A stretch of DNA of 64,000 nt from Fervidobacterium thailandense (GTDB lineage Bacteria; Thermotogota; Thermotogae; Thermotogales; Fervidobacteriaceae). Within the stretch, counting starts at the first letter, position 1, and each line of letters starts with the position of its first letter. Of the stretch, positions 58,393-62,437 are shown piece by piece. The DNA is taken from assembly GCF_001719065.1 (NCBI RefSeq), contig NZ_LWAF01000011.1, forward strand, positions 1 to 64,000, read 5' to 3'. Both the position numbers and the translations under genes were made by a program. The notes beneath the pieces are model-generated. The model had not been told where the DNA came from, ran no database searches, and was given only the letters and a program-made list of their open reading frames with translations.

Positions 58393-58424
58393 AAAAAACA
58401 AACCCCATGGGGCAACCCATGGGG
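58393..58424 (-). terminator. Attenuator terminator before the ABC exporter
   Basis: On the minus strand: 9-bp stem (58416-58424 with 58403-58411) and a 4-base loop, then a T-rich run (plus-strand A-rich 58393-58402). It ends only 14 bases before the first exporter start, so it must be bypassed for expression. Confidence 0.85.
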
Positions 58425-58529
58425 AATTTAACACATTTTTCAATCTTAACCGGAAAGCCAGGTTGCCCGCTAAACTGTTCTGAAATATCCCTTCCTTTTT
58501 ATCAACCCAGTTCCAACCATCGGGCAACC
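58403..58529 (-). promoter_or_regulatory. Ribosome-controlled attenuator of the ABC exporter
   Basis: Three complementary segments on the minus strand. A (58521-58529, GGTTGCCCG) lies exactly between the leader ribosome site and its ATG. B (58461-58469, CGGGCAACC) begins right after the leader stop codon. C (58409-58418, GGGTTGCCCC) is inside the terminator stem. A pairs with B over 9 bp. B pairs with C over 8 bp and would break the terminator. A ribosome held at the leader start covers A and frees B to pair with C, allowing readthrough. Layout resembles bmrB-bmrCD of Bacillus subtilis, though the sequences are not comparable. Confidence 0.78.
58470..58520 (-). CDS. Leader peptide of the ABC exporter operon
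   Basis: 16 residues, MVGTGLIKRKGYFRTV, TAG stop. A strong GAGGAGG site (plus-strand 58529-58535) lies eight bases upstream of ATG 58520. The gene ends one base before antiterminator segment B. Its role would be regulatory. No rare-codon run is seen, so stalling by a drug is more likely than amino-acid sensing. Confidence 0.7.
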   Translation of the reverse strand: MVGTGLIKRKGYFRTV

Positions 58530-58557
58530 CTCCTCAAAAAGTTTGCTTTGCAAACTG

Positions 58558-58587
58558 ATTTTACCATAACCTGTGGTTTAATGTCAA
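58558..58587 (-). promoter_or_regulatory. Promoter of the leader/ABC operon
   Basis: Minus strand: perfect TTGACA (58582-58587), 18-bp spacer, TAAAAT (58558-58563). Transcription would begin near 58551, next to a small stem-loop (58540-58556). Confidence 0.7.
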
Positions 58588-58696: not shown

Positions 58697-58858
58697 CTTT
58701 ATATCCCACGTATCCAACATGAGATGCGCAGTCAATATGAAACACGTCAAGTGTACAAAAATTTCTTTACACCCCACGTAGTTAATATGAGCCGCACACT
58801 TTCACCGCAATGCTTGAGCGTATCGAAACCTCTACATCCCACGTAGTTAATATGAGAC
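58697..58858 (-). CRISPR. CRISPR array, left part (3 repeats)
   Basis: 29-bp repeats at 58697-58725, 58765-58793 and 58830-58858, with core CCCACGTAGTTAATATGAG. Spacers are 39 and 36 bp. The leftmost repeat has several changes (TATCCAAC for TAGTTAAT), as expected of the trailer end, so transcription should run on the minus strand. 58600-58696 holds no gene I can support. No cas genes are in the window. Confidence 0.85.
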
Positions 58859-58976
58859 TCACGATTGTATAACCCTTGCGCCGACAGTACTCACGGATGT
58901 CTTCTAATTGTTTTTCAACGCTCGTATCTTGCTGGTTCGCCGTACTAAACTTTGCATACGCTACTGCGCGTTTCAA
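58859..58976 (-). pseudogene. Serine recombinase N-terminal fragment
   Basis: TTG 58976, with GAGGTG upstream, opens MKRAVAYAKFSTANQQ, then KQLEDIREYCRRKGYTIV: the resolvase N-terminus with the catalytic Ser region (YAKFST). After about 39 residues the frame runs straight into CRISPR repeat 3, so the gene is cut there. Probably a relic of the element that split the array. Confidence 0.7.
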
Positions 58977-58988
58977 TTTATCACCTCA

Positions 58989-59666
58989 TTACTTTTTCGG
59001 TCTACAAAGCGGACAAGGTTTATAACCCATTGCTTGTGCGTCTAAATAATCTGCTATAAAAGACCAATTTATTGTTTGAAGAAGAGGACATGTTGAAACA
59101 TGATAATACCCTAAGCTTGGGGTAACAAAAACACTGACTCGAGGCGGGGCATAATAATTCTTCCAAACACCTATTAAGTTTGTTCGTGCATATTTTTCAA
59201 GTCCTTCAAAAACTTTAATATACTTAAGACCAGCAAAAAGCGGTTCCGGATAGGCCAAACCATTAACAATTAAAAGCGCATTAAGCATTTTTGAACTGAT
59301 TTCTTCTTGCGTTACATATGTTTTGCCTTGTTCTTGAATGGTGTTGGGAAGCTCGAGCCAAACATAAGCAAAAACTTCTACATCTGACGTTACGACAGCA
59401 TTATCAAACTCCAAATAAACTATTTTGTTTATCGTTTGTTGCAACAATTTGAGAGCTTGAGCACCGTAATAATTCATTGTCCAATCTTCAACGTCAACGC
59501 CTAGTAGCTTGACTTTGATTTTGTTTCCATCTACGATCGCTATGAATGTTTCGTTATCAATGACTGATTCGACAAATGCTTTTTTTAAGCTTGATTCGTC
59601 AAAAACAAAATTTGAAAAAAGAACTACCGTGAGTGAAAGTATTAAACCAATCATCGCCCTGCGCAT
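58989..59666 (-). CDS. Secreted SNase-fold protein with C-terminal Cys/His motif
   Basis: 225 residues. Signal peptide (1-20). Staphylococcal-nuclease-like fold (about 30-160): VDGNKIKVKLLGVDVED, YYGAQALKLLQQTI, VYLEFDN, VFAYVWLEL and ALLIVNGLAYPE align with SNase order. The catalytic Arg-Glu-Arg set looks altered (Lys, Asp and a hydrophobic residue), so activity is doubtful. The C-terminus GYYHVSTCPLL...YKPCPLCRPKK resembles an Ada-like metal-binding end. GGAGGG precedes the ATG. It sits inside an 833-bp insertion in the CRISPR array. Confidence 0.75.
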   Translation of the reverse strand: MRRAMIGLILSLTVVLFSNFVFDESSLKKAFVESVIDNETFIAIVDGNKIKVKLLGVDVEDWTMNYYGAQALKLLQQTINKIVYLEFDNAVVTSDVEVFAYVWLELPNTIQEQGKTYVTQEEISSKMLNALLIVNGLAYPEPLFAGLKYIKVFEGLEKYARTNLIGVWKNYYAPPRVSVFVTPSLGYYHVSTCPLLQTINWSFIADYLDAQAMGYKPCPLCRPKK

Positions 59667-59691: not shown

Positions 59692-59915
59692 CTTTACATC
59701 CCACGTAGTTAATATGAGACTCTTAGCACCAAACAGAAAAATTTACTGTGCTCCTCTTTACATCTCACGTAGTTAATATGAGACACGCTTGGTCCGTCAC
59801 GAAACGGGAGACCAAAGCGAGCTTTGCATCCCACGCAGTTAATATGAGACCTTGAGTTAGAAAAAGCTCAAAGACCCTTCGATGACTCCGCTTTGCATCC
59901 CACGTAGTTAATATC
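59692..59915 (-). CRISPR. CRISPR array, right part (4 repeats)
   Basis: Repeats at 59692-59720, 59756-59784, 59822-59850 and a shortened one at 59891-59915 that lacks the final GAGAC. Spacers are 35, 37 and 40 bp. Point changes include CATCTCACG and CACGCAG. Only about 36 AT-rich bases separate the last repeat from the copper chaperone gene, so a normal leader is missing. Together with 58697-58858 this was one array of about seven repeats. Confidence 0.88.
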
Positions 59916-59951
59916 TGCGTTCTTTTAAAATTTATTTTACCAGGGAGACAA

Positions 59952-60167
59952 CTAACCTTCAACGTTCATTTCAACAACCTTATATCCCAGTTCTTCAAGT
60001 TCGTTAACTGCCTTCTCCAGGATCTCTTGTTCGGCTTCGATTTTGATTCTCTTTTCGGACAATTGAACCTCAAAATTTTCTATTCCAAGCTTTGTCAGCA
60101 AATTTGAGATCCTTTTGACACAATGTTCGCAAGAAATGTTTGGGACTACTAAAACATATCTTCTCAT
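59952..60167 (-). CDS. copZ: Copper chaperone, HMA domain
   Basis: 71 residues, one heavy-metal-associated domain with the metal site SCEHCVKRI (CxxC). It delivers Cu+ to the ATPase encoded 18 bases upstream. Last gene of the copper operon. Confidence 0.9.
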   Translation of the reverse strand: MRRYVLVVPNISCEHCVKRISNLLTKLGIENFEVQLSEKRIKIEAEQEILEKAVNELEELGYKVVEMNVEG

Positions 60168-60185: not shown

Positions 60186-62381
60186 TTATACAATTCGTTT
60201 ACTCAACTTACGAGTAATACCGAGCGAGATGGTGATGACCGTTATCGAACTCATAGCCATCGCTCCTTCGGCTATTACTGGATGTAAGAATCCGAGCATC
60301 GCGGATGGAATTGCTACGACGTTGTATAGGAACGCAAAAACCAGGTTTTTCTTTATAGTGCTGAATGTGATTTTCGAAATTTCAATCAACTCAACAACCT
60401 TCGATATACCACCTTTCATAATAATAACATCCGCGCTTTCCAGGGCAATCTCACTACCACTTCCAATTGCCACCCCGATGTCCGCTGCTTTCAAAGCCGG
60501 AGCATCGTTTATGCCATCGCCAACCATTAGAACCTTTTTGCCTTTCGATTGGAAGTGTCGAACTATATTGACCTTATCTTCAGGGCTTGCACCTGCAAAG
60601 ATCTCGGAAATGCCAACTTTTGAACCAACAACCTTTGCTACAGCTTCGTTATCACCTGTCACCATCACCGGGTGTACAGAAGCATCTTTCAATCTCTGTA
60701 CAGCTTCCTTCGAGTCCTCTCTTATTGTATCAGAAATCGCAAAGAATCCAATAACGTTATCGTCTTTTCTCACCTCCACGATGGAACAACCTTCCTGAAG
60801 AAACTTCATGTAAATTGAATAATCCTTCGGTTTTCCAACAAAGTATCTTACGCCTTTGTGAACAACCGAAATTCCACTACCACGTTCTTCCTTAATTTCC
60901 TCAAATTCTTTTAGTATGTCTTCCTTATCAAAACCATTTTTTACAAGAGGTTGGAGGTGCGCAAATACCGACTGTGCAAGTGGGTGATTCGAAAGGCTTG
61001 CGATGTACGCAACCGTAGTGTACTCGAATTGCGGTAGTTCGAAGTGAACAACGGTAGGTTTTCCATTAGTTATGGTACCTGTCTTGTCAAAAAGTACGTA
61101 TCCAACATCTTTCATCGTCTGTATCACTTCCGCGTTTCTAATAAGAAGTCCCTTTTTCATGGCCTGTGAGGTTCCAACAATTAGTGCCATCGGTGTAGCA
61201 AGTCCCAGTGCACAAGGGCACGCAATCACGATGGTACTAAGAAAGATAAAAACTGCCGTAGAAAATCGATCGGTAAAGTGCACCGACCATGGAAGGAGTT
61301 GGAAAAATGGTTTCATGGAAGCAAGAAGAGTTTCGAAATTGAAGTACCAAACCACGCTACTAAAAAATGCGAGAACTATTACTACGGGGACGAACCAAGC
61401 GGTTATTCTATCAGCCAAGGCCTGGATGGGTACCTTGGCTCCTTGAACTTCCTGGATTAGTGCGATCATTTTAGAAAGGAAAGAATCGTTTCCAACGTTA
61501 GTAACTTTTATTTTGATCACACCGTCAACGTTCATGGAACCACCAACTACGTTGTTTCCAACGGTTTTCGTGACTGGAATTGGTTCTCCGGAAATCATCG
61601 ATTCATCAACGTTTGAGGTTCCTTCGATTATTATTCCATCTGCTGGAATCCTCTCTCCAGGCTTAACTAAAACGATATCACCTTCTCGAACGAAGTCTAA
61701 GGGGACGGAAATTTCTCCATCAGTCGTTAATACTGTTGCGTTTTTCGATCGAAGTTCAAGAAGAGCTCTCACCTCTTTAGATGCTTTATCCCGAAGGTAA
61801 GATTCTATGAGACGTCCTACTAAGTGTAACGTTATTATCATCGAGCCAACCATTCCGAAAGGCTGAATTTTTAAGCCGAAGAAATGCAGAAGTTCGGTAA
61901 GCCAAGCGGTTAAAGCACCGAAAGTTATCAGGGTGTCCATGTTCGTGTGCTTGTGAACCAGGGCGATGAATGCTCCGCGAAACGCATCGCTTCCTGCGTA
62001 AAAAATCGCGATAGCTGAAAGTAAGAGCATCACAGCTTCCAGAACTTTTGAATGTCCGTGCGGTAAAAAAGCCATGCTAACAAACATAAAAGCGGTAATC
62101 GATATGGCAAAAATAGTTTTTCGCTTGGTTCTTTTGTATCTTCTGACTTCGTAACCTTCATCGAGGTGATCGGCAACAGAATATCCAACTTCTTCCACTG
62201 CCTTTTTCAATAATTCGTTGGGTACGTCTTTTTCAAGAACAACGAACGCAGTGTTTGTGGCAAGATTCACCGCAGCAAATTTGACACCGTCGACTTTTCG
62301 AAGGGACTTCTCTACAATTCGAGCGCAGTTGGCACATGTCATTCCGGAAATTCGAAGGGTTTTCTTCAATTGCTCAGGCAG
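60186..62381 (-). CDS. copA: Copper-transporting P1B-type ATPase
   Basis: About 731 residues. N-terminal HMA domain (GMTCANCARIVE), eight membrane helices with ion-site CPC (VIACPCALGLATPMAL), actuator SGEPIPV, phosphorylation site DKTGTITNGK, HP motif SNHPLAQ and GDGINDAPALKAADIG. It exports Cu+. The start is unclear: ATG 62423 lies inside the promoter, while AAGGAGGTG (62388-62396) points to CTG 62381. A TTG at 62369 is the alternative. Confidence 0.95.
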   Translation of the reverse strand: MPEQLKKTLRISGMTCANCARIVEKSLRKVDGVKFAAVNLATNTAFVVLEKDVPNELLKKAVEEVGYSVADHLDEGYEVRRYKRTKRKTIFAISITAFMFVSMAFLPHGHSKVLEAVMLLLSAIAIFYAGSDAFRGAFIALVHKHTNMDTLITFGALTAWLTELLHFFGLKIQPFGMVGSMIITLHLVGRLIESYLRDKASKEVRALLELRSKNATVLTTDGEISVPLDFVREGDIVLVKPGERIPADGIIIEGTSNVDESMISGEPIPVTKTVGNNVVGGSMNVDGVIKIKVTNVGNDSFLSKMIALIQEVQGAKVPIQALADRITAWFVPVVIVLAFFSSVVWYFNFETLLASMKPFFQLLPWSVHFTDRFSTAVFIFLSTIVIACPCALGLATPMALIVGTSQAMKKGLLIRNAEVIQTMKDVGYVLFDKTGTITNGKPTVVHFELPQFEYTTVAYIASLSNHPLAQSVFAHLQPLVKNGFDKEDILKEFEEIKEERGSGISVVHKGVRYFVGKPKDYSIYMKFLQEGCSIVEVRKDDNVIGFFAISDTIREDSKEAVQRLKDASVHPVMVTGDNEAVAKVVGSKVGISEIFAGASPEDKVNIVRHFQSKGKKVLMVGDGINDAPALKAADIGVAIGSGSEIALESADVIIMKGGISKVVELIEISKITFSTIKKNLVFAFLYNVVAIPSAMLGFLHPVIAEGAMAMSSITVITISLGITRKLSKRIV

Positions 62382-62408
62382 ACGAACCACCTCCTTGTAT
62401 GCATAAAT

Positions 62409-62437
62409 ATTGTACCATAACACCCTACAAAGGTAAA
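62409..62437 (-). promoter_or_regulatory. Promoter of copA-copZ
   Basis: Minus strand: TTTACC (62432-62437), 17-bp spacer, TACAAT (62409-62414). The transcript would begin near 62402, below the farthest upstream ATG. No recognisable CsoR or CopY operator. Confidence 0.6.

Follow-up and report, generated by a model that had tools for sequence, protein, structure and literature searches.

A probable ribosome-controlled transcription attenuator in front of a heterodimeric ABC exporter operon of Thermotogota

What decides whether transcription passes from the leader of an ABC exporter operon in Fervidobacterium thailandense into the exporter genes? The operon lies in a window of 64,000 nt, which is the whole stretch of DNA that was analysed (assembly GCF_001719065.1, contig NZ_LWAF01000011.1, positions 1-64,000) and in which all coordinates are counted. 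A sequence-only reading had described its leader as a complete ribosome-controlled attenuator, and the elements of that reading were confirmed base for base on the minus strand (Table 1). These are the TTGACA-18-TAAAAT promoter, found just where it had been placed and matching the consensus at 11 of 12 positions, the 16-codon leader gene with its strong Shine-Dalgarno (SD) sequence, a segment A between the leader ribosome site and the ATG, and a terminator shortly before the exporter, where a nine-pair hairpin with a U tract ends 13 nt from the exporter ATG (58379). A leader open reading frame (ORF) with a ribosome-binding site, a terminator and mutually exclusive, conserved pairings are all present, and on these sequence grounds the leader may be classed as a ribosome-mediated transcription attenuator. 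The reading that we prefer, with a probability of roughly 0.78, is that this attenuator senses a ribosome held at the leader start (about codons 1-4) and regulates a heterodimeric ABC exporter of type IV.

Table 1. Features of the leader and of the exporter operon, with positions in the window
Feature	Position	Strand	Remarks
Sigma-70-type promoter TTGACA-18-TAAAAT	58558..58587	minus	-35 TTGACA 58587-58582; spacer 18 nt; -10 TAAAAT 58563-58558; 11/12 consensus matches
Hairpin GTTTGC-AAA-GCAAAC-TTTTT just 3' of the promoter	58536..58555	minus	read from the sequence
Leader Shine-Dalgarno GAGGAGGG	58528..58535	minus	read from the sequence; last three bases belong to A
Segment A GGGTTGCCCG (GGGUUGCCCG)	58521..58530	minus	anti-antiterminator half, between SD core and ATG
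Leader ORF, 16 codons, MVGTGLIKRKGYFRTV and stop	58470..58520	minus	ATG 58520, TAG 58472-58470
Segment B CGGGCAACC	58461..58469	minus	pairs with A or C, never both
Intrinsic terminator CCCCATGGG-TTGC-CCCATGGGG (RNA CCCCAUGGG-UUGC-CCCAUGGGG)	58403..58424	minus	9 pairs, 7 G-C
Segment C GGGTTGCCCC (GGGUUGCCCC)	58409..58418	minus	terminator inner stem and loop; near-copy of A
Terminator U-rich tract TTTGTTTTTT (UUUGUUUUUU)	58393..58402	minus	read from the sequence
ABC exporter subunit 1, 604 aa	56565..58379	minus	Walker B FDD, degenerate catalytic site; signature LSGGQ
ABC exporter subunit 2, 601 aa	54779..56584	minus	Walker B LDE; signature LSTGQ; overlaps subunit 1

The genes downstream of the leader were found to encode half-transporters of a type IV exporter, and their PDB matches include TmrAB, BmrC (YheI) and TM_0288. 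We take the combination of FDD and LSGGQ in one subunit with LDE and LSTGQ in the other to mark a heterodimeric exporter in which one of the ATP sites is degenerate (cf. TM287/288 and BmrCD). Judged by its sequence, the operon encodes a probable multidrug exporter, which presumably exports drugs. The exporter was found in nine of 103 Thermotogota genomes, all belonging to one family (20 genomes among those compared), with protein identities from 88 down to 48%. The window comes from a genus of two species. Eight of the nine genomes have an intact 5' region and form the set compared here, while the contig of the ninth ends before that region. In one of them (G002) a single in-frame TGA was observed in the match to subunit 1, and the leader of this genome is intact.

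The elements were observed in the same order in all eight genomes: promoter and SD come first, segment A ends at the ATG, the short ORF and segment B follow, and the terminator comes last, with a copy of A as its loop (C). Segment A forms the last 9-10 nt before the leader ATG in every genome, with the SD and the ATG adjoining it, and the terminator hairpin always lies upstream of the exporter and outside the leader ORF. The pairings A:B and B:C are mutually exclusive, as both draw on B, and both are conserved; the exclusive pairing that had been proposed from the window thus recurs in 8/8 genomes. The distance from ATG to B stays within 47-60 nt, and that from B to C ranges over 46-145 nt. 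The window and its sister species share the motif GGGUUGCCC for A and C and GGGCAACC for B, except that the A of the sister is UGGUUGCUC, and most other genomes have GGGUUGUCC (A and C) with GGACAACCC (B). Four of the eight genomes also have a TGGAG after B that matches a CTCCA of the terminator arm and gives a longer antiterminator. A:B is weak in G001 (the sister species) and G015, and B:C is still perfect in both.

Promoter-like sequences were also observed throughout the set: read from the sequence, a TTGAC[AT] box followed 16-18 nt on by a -10-like box lies 5' of the leader in 8/8 genomes. The promoter-like and terminator-like sites of the leader are the top of their kind within 8 kb. The raw counts in those 8 kb, 13 promoter-like and 11 terminator-like sites, are close to the shuffled expectation of 10.7 and 9.2, and therefore the consensus scan proves nothing by itself. 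The hairpin at 58536-58555 has an identical copy in G001 and a near-copy, TTTGCAAAGCGAAC, in G002. The transcript presumably begins at this hairpin, which might serve as a 5'-end protector or a pause signal.

The strength of the pairings was assessed on alignment A2, which has eight rows and exact cores. Standard pairs were found in 91.7% of the cells for A:B and 88.4% for B:C, and in 23-54% when the partner was slid by 1-3 columns. The covariation that had been sought in relatives was seen in part: a single base changes jointly in A, B and C between genera (U/A/U to C/G/C), but a column-shuffle control stayed below significance, because there are eight rows and most columns are invariant. We therefore place weight on the conserved complementarity amid diverged spacers. 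In G016 a U-A pair has become U-G, so that each of the two pairings contains a wobble. A weighted joint test, in which a single 12-nt stretch has to match A as well as C, placed the leader above 300/300 shuffles in six genomes, that of the window included, and above 298/300 and 299/300 in the others (300 shuffles per genome). It replaced a laxer test with free G-U pairs, which gave 32/1000 for the window alone; the window genome by itself is therefore only suggestive, and it is conservation that settles the matter. Folding of the whole leader had a z-score of -1.2, with 25 of 200 shuffles equally good. Conservation of the A, B and C pairing in relatives was the check on which the sequence-only reading had staked itself, and with the pairing found in all eight genomes with an intact 5' region, this sequence comparison moves the observation from plausible to well supported.

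The leader ORF, which is presumably translated, has 16-39 codons among the eight genomes. It is open as far as B in all of them, and the product of the shuffle probabilities, 2.5e-5, is only a guide because the species are related. The sequence-only reading had placed B after the leader stop codon, and this holds for the two species of the window's genus, where a ribosome terminating at the stop beside B would still cover B, but in the other six species B lies within the ORF. There it occurs in differing reading frames (as an example, ATT GGA CAA CCC versus TAT TGG ACA ACC). No conservation of the leader peptide was found among the eight genomes, the peptides being unrelated across genera, and neither a conserved codon or amino acid along the leader nor a conserved stall motif of the ermC or RLR type was found in them. 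Substitutions between the window and G001, the two closest genomes, number 5 at first, 3 at second and 3 at third codon positions; there is no third-position bias and therefore no sign of selection on the leader amino acids. Since the peptide is not conserved and the frames of the B motif differ, the signal is likely to be the position of the ribosome on the RNA rather than the peptide, and stalling should be independent of the peptide sequence.

Whether such a position could direct the fold was addressed by modelling. At equilibrium the complete leader forms the terminator whichever part is masked in seven of the eight genomes, masking of A included, and masking of the start brings out the antiterminator in G005 alone. 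As the terminator is more stable than B:C at equilibrium in these seven, capture by B would have to be co-transcriptional and kinetic. In the bmrB study, too, the predicted antiterminator is the less stable of the two folds (PMC4191407). We also folded growing transcripts stepwise at 60 C with a ribosome imposed through assumed footprints. With the ribosome at the start, B:C was dominant in 8/8 genomes when the RNA was about 5 nt short of the complete terminator, and in seven of them it yielded only over the last few bases, whereas with the ribosome on B it never formed. With no ribosome, A:B persisted and the terminator grew progressively in six genomes, and a transient B:C was observed in G001 and G015, which have the weaker A:B. 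Stepwise folding under the imposed ribosome, a form of the masking that had been suggested as a check, yields the proposed states, and at equilibrium the terminator wins in 7/8. The proposed logic, that a ribosome at the start frees B and one over B keeps the terminator, is in agreement with the stepwise model, in which the position of the ribosome would choose between termination and read-through. An untranslated leader in G001 and G015 might read through, and in these two species the off state would depend mainly on translation of B.

In the mechanism that we propose, B would be the switch strand of a three-state attenuator. In a leader without a ribosome, B would pair with A, the leader start would be occluded, the terminator would fold and transcription would stop. 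Under normal translation the ribosome would pass over B (six species) or halt beside it (the window's genus), and with B blocked in this way the terminator would again fold and leave the operon off. A ribosome that is arrested while initiating, or within the first few codons, would hide A under its footprint and leave B free. The free B would capture C, in the loop and inner 5' arm of the terminator, while this part of the RNA emerges from the polymerase, and in four species CTCCA would be captured as well. The terminator would then be lost and transcription would continue into the exporter genes. B:C would cover the loop and inner stem, where the terminator hairpin normally nucleates, and the TGGAG:CTCCA pairing of the four species would close the remaining toehold. 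Because control by early-arrested ribosomes would here precede a probable multidrug exporter, the agents to be expected are inhibitors of initiation or of the first peptide bonds. By analogy with known leaders, the inducers are likely to be drugs or conditions under which ribosomes are held at start codons, and a drug is presumably what induces the operon.

Other readings of the same leader were weighed against this one. A general translation-rate attenuator of the bmrB type would antiterminate on any slowing of the leader ribosome before B, be it from rare codons, low charged tRNA or many drugs. The same type of exporter is so controlled in Bacillus (PMC4191407), and long leader ORFs with B inside (six of eight) are compatible with such a sensor. 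However, a ribosome paused past about codon 6 would uncover A and make A:B available. All eight genomes have A at the start codon, and the leader shows no conserved codon or amino acid. We regard a rate sensor as unlikely. The segments might also have been conserved by chance or for some other reason, for example as a ribosome-site hairpin and a terminator that act independently, with no switch at all. This would fit the terminator winning at equilibrium, but C copies A in 8/8 genomes and B changes with both, and B:C is perfect in G001 and G015 despite the weakened A:B, which independent hairpins do not require; of all the readings we give this one the least credence.

The stretch between A and B bears on the two remaining readings. 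Alternative terminator and antiterminator folds are also a platform of riboswitches, and A:B could in principle be the aptamer stem of a ligand-binding riboswitch or direct RNA sensor to which the ORF is incidental. Against this, the 44-57 nt enclosed by A:B were found to hold no conserved sequence or structure in the alignment of the eight genomes, the ORF is open and the SD and ATG lie beside A in all eight, and no credible Rfam match was obtained for the leader even at E<=5, so that we hold a riboswitch to be highly improbable. In a peptide-dependent drug attenuator of the ermC/cat type, a specific nascent peptide together with a drug stalls the ribosome at a set codon. That a short leader precedes what is probably a drug exporter would suit such a device, but the peptides are unrelated across genera and the 5/3/3 substitutions have no third-position bias, and its chances appear slimmer still. 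The riboswitch, amino-acid-codon and peptide-stall readings were rejected for the lack of conservation between A and B.

The known system closest to a sensor of start-held ribosomes is the vmlR leader of Bacillus subtilis, where retapamulin or lincomycin stalls ribosomes at initiation and iboxamycin is a further inducer (PMC9226507). There, too, the start region of a short uORF lies within the anti-antiterminator stem, and a ribosome stalled at initiation blocks this stem, upon which the antiterminator forms and the terminator is lost (PMC9226507). The uORF variants MDN and MDK were at least as effective as MIN, and MRK less (PMC9226507); the vmlR leader largely tolerates changes of uORF sequence, much as the peptides here are unconserved. 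In contrast to the present leader, vmlR is a Firmicutes system that controls an ABC-F ribosome-protection protein rather than a type IV exporter, has a uORF of 3 codons (MIN) against 16-39, and contains pause sites as well as a hairpin that covers the SD of the resistance gene, whereas a terminator loop that copies the segment at the leader ribosome-binding site is a trait of the Thermotogota leader.

The sequence-only reading had pictured a compact Thermotogota version of bmrCD control. This stands as an analogy, but vmlR is nearer than bmrB and neither is a homologue. The bmrB-bmrCD system of B. subtilis shares a leader ORF, an attenuator and a heterodimeric multidrug ABC exporter with one degenerate ATP site, and its antiterminator is again predicted to be the weaker fold (PMC4191407). 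It differs in that its 162-bp ORF contains the terminator, which lies outside the ORF in 8/8 genomes here, and it acts as a translation-rate sensor with an anti-antiterminator of unclear role (PMC4191407). In the present leader the anti-antiterminator is the start-codon region itself. We place the leader in neither the vmlR nor the bmrB family, because the genes, the leader size and the terminator position differ and there is no detectable homology. It is an analogue, not a homologue, of both and is set apart from vmlR by its downstream genes and the absence of an Rfam match.

In Listeria, rli80-hflXr likewise combines a small ORF with an anti-antiterminator, an antiterminator and a terminator, and its gene is induced by ribosome drugs, but its 14-aa peptide has an RLR macrolide-stall motif of a kind not conserved here (PMC6310831). 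The lmo0919 attenuator of Listeria is induced by lincomycin. Unlike the present operon, neither hflXr nor lmo0919 is an exporter gene. The trp attenuator of E. coli has segments that pair as 1:2, 2:3 and 3:4, and its untranslated leader terminates. The segment logic is the same, but the trp leader stalls ribosomes on Trp codons, while here no codon is conserved and segment 1 is located at the start codon.

It seems rather probable that these leaders represent a new Thermotogota RNA family in which sensing is done by the leader's own start-site segment and a copy of this segment forms the terminator loop, a strand-exchange switch of thermophiles that responds to ribosomes parked at a start codon, drives a drug exporter and evolved independently of vmlR. 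A covariance model of the A-B region found eight places among the 103 Thermotogota genomes, with 60-75 bits and all before the exporter operon; the next score, 26 bits, was on the opposite strand of one of these places. Ten sub-threshold matches that were inspected were coding-like or unrelated hairpins, and the device was recognised in none. Rfam gave no match above its curated gathering score, and no earlier description of such attenuators in Thermotogota was found in the open-licence literature. Outside Thermotogota, no device was observed upstream of six exporter relatives (28-39% identity; few are close) or by a device detector on nine exporter loci.

The well-studied antibiotic-sensing attenuators cited above belong to Firmicutes, and the present one occurs in a deep-branching phylum of thermophiles. 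Its presence predicts an encounter of these bacteria with inhibitors of early translation and names the exporter that they would use, and if this is true, bacteria of hot environments are exposed to natural inhibitors of this kind. The leader would be a compact and mutable sensor for start-codon-arresting drugs. A terminator loop that copies a start-site segment is furthermore a simple design rule which can be searched for elsewhere.

A search of 45 genomes of the order for the start-site pattern gave other matches (S-layer-like and YggS-like genes among them), and those inspected were without the B/C arrangement. At a separate locus, L109 (G021:C1, near 1572814), the sequence GGGUAGCCCC ahead of an ATG is paired with GGGGCUACCC, which lies about 85 nt into a sugar ABC permease-like gene; this hairpin is apparently start-site-sequestering and unrelated to the attenuator.

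The surroundings of the operon hold some further elements, all on the minus strand. A CopZ-like metallochaperone (59952-60167) and a copper-type P1B ATPase (60186-62423) are encoded upstream of the exporter operon. Between these copper genes and the operon we noticed seven copies of a repeat of about 29 bp, approximately GTCTCATATTAACTACGTGGGATGTAAAG, at 58700-58860 and 59697-59930, with a spacing of 64-69 bp within the two blocks. The Rfam model CRISPR-DR14 matches the repeats below its threshold, and they form a degenerate CRISPR-like array that is split by about 0.8 kb. The gap between the blocks contains an ORF of 225 aa (58989-59666) and a short ORF that resembles the start of a serine recombinase (58782-58976).
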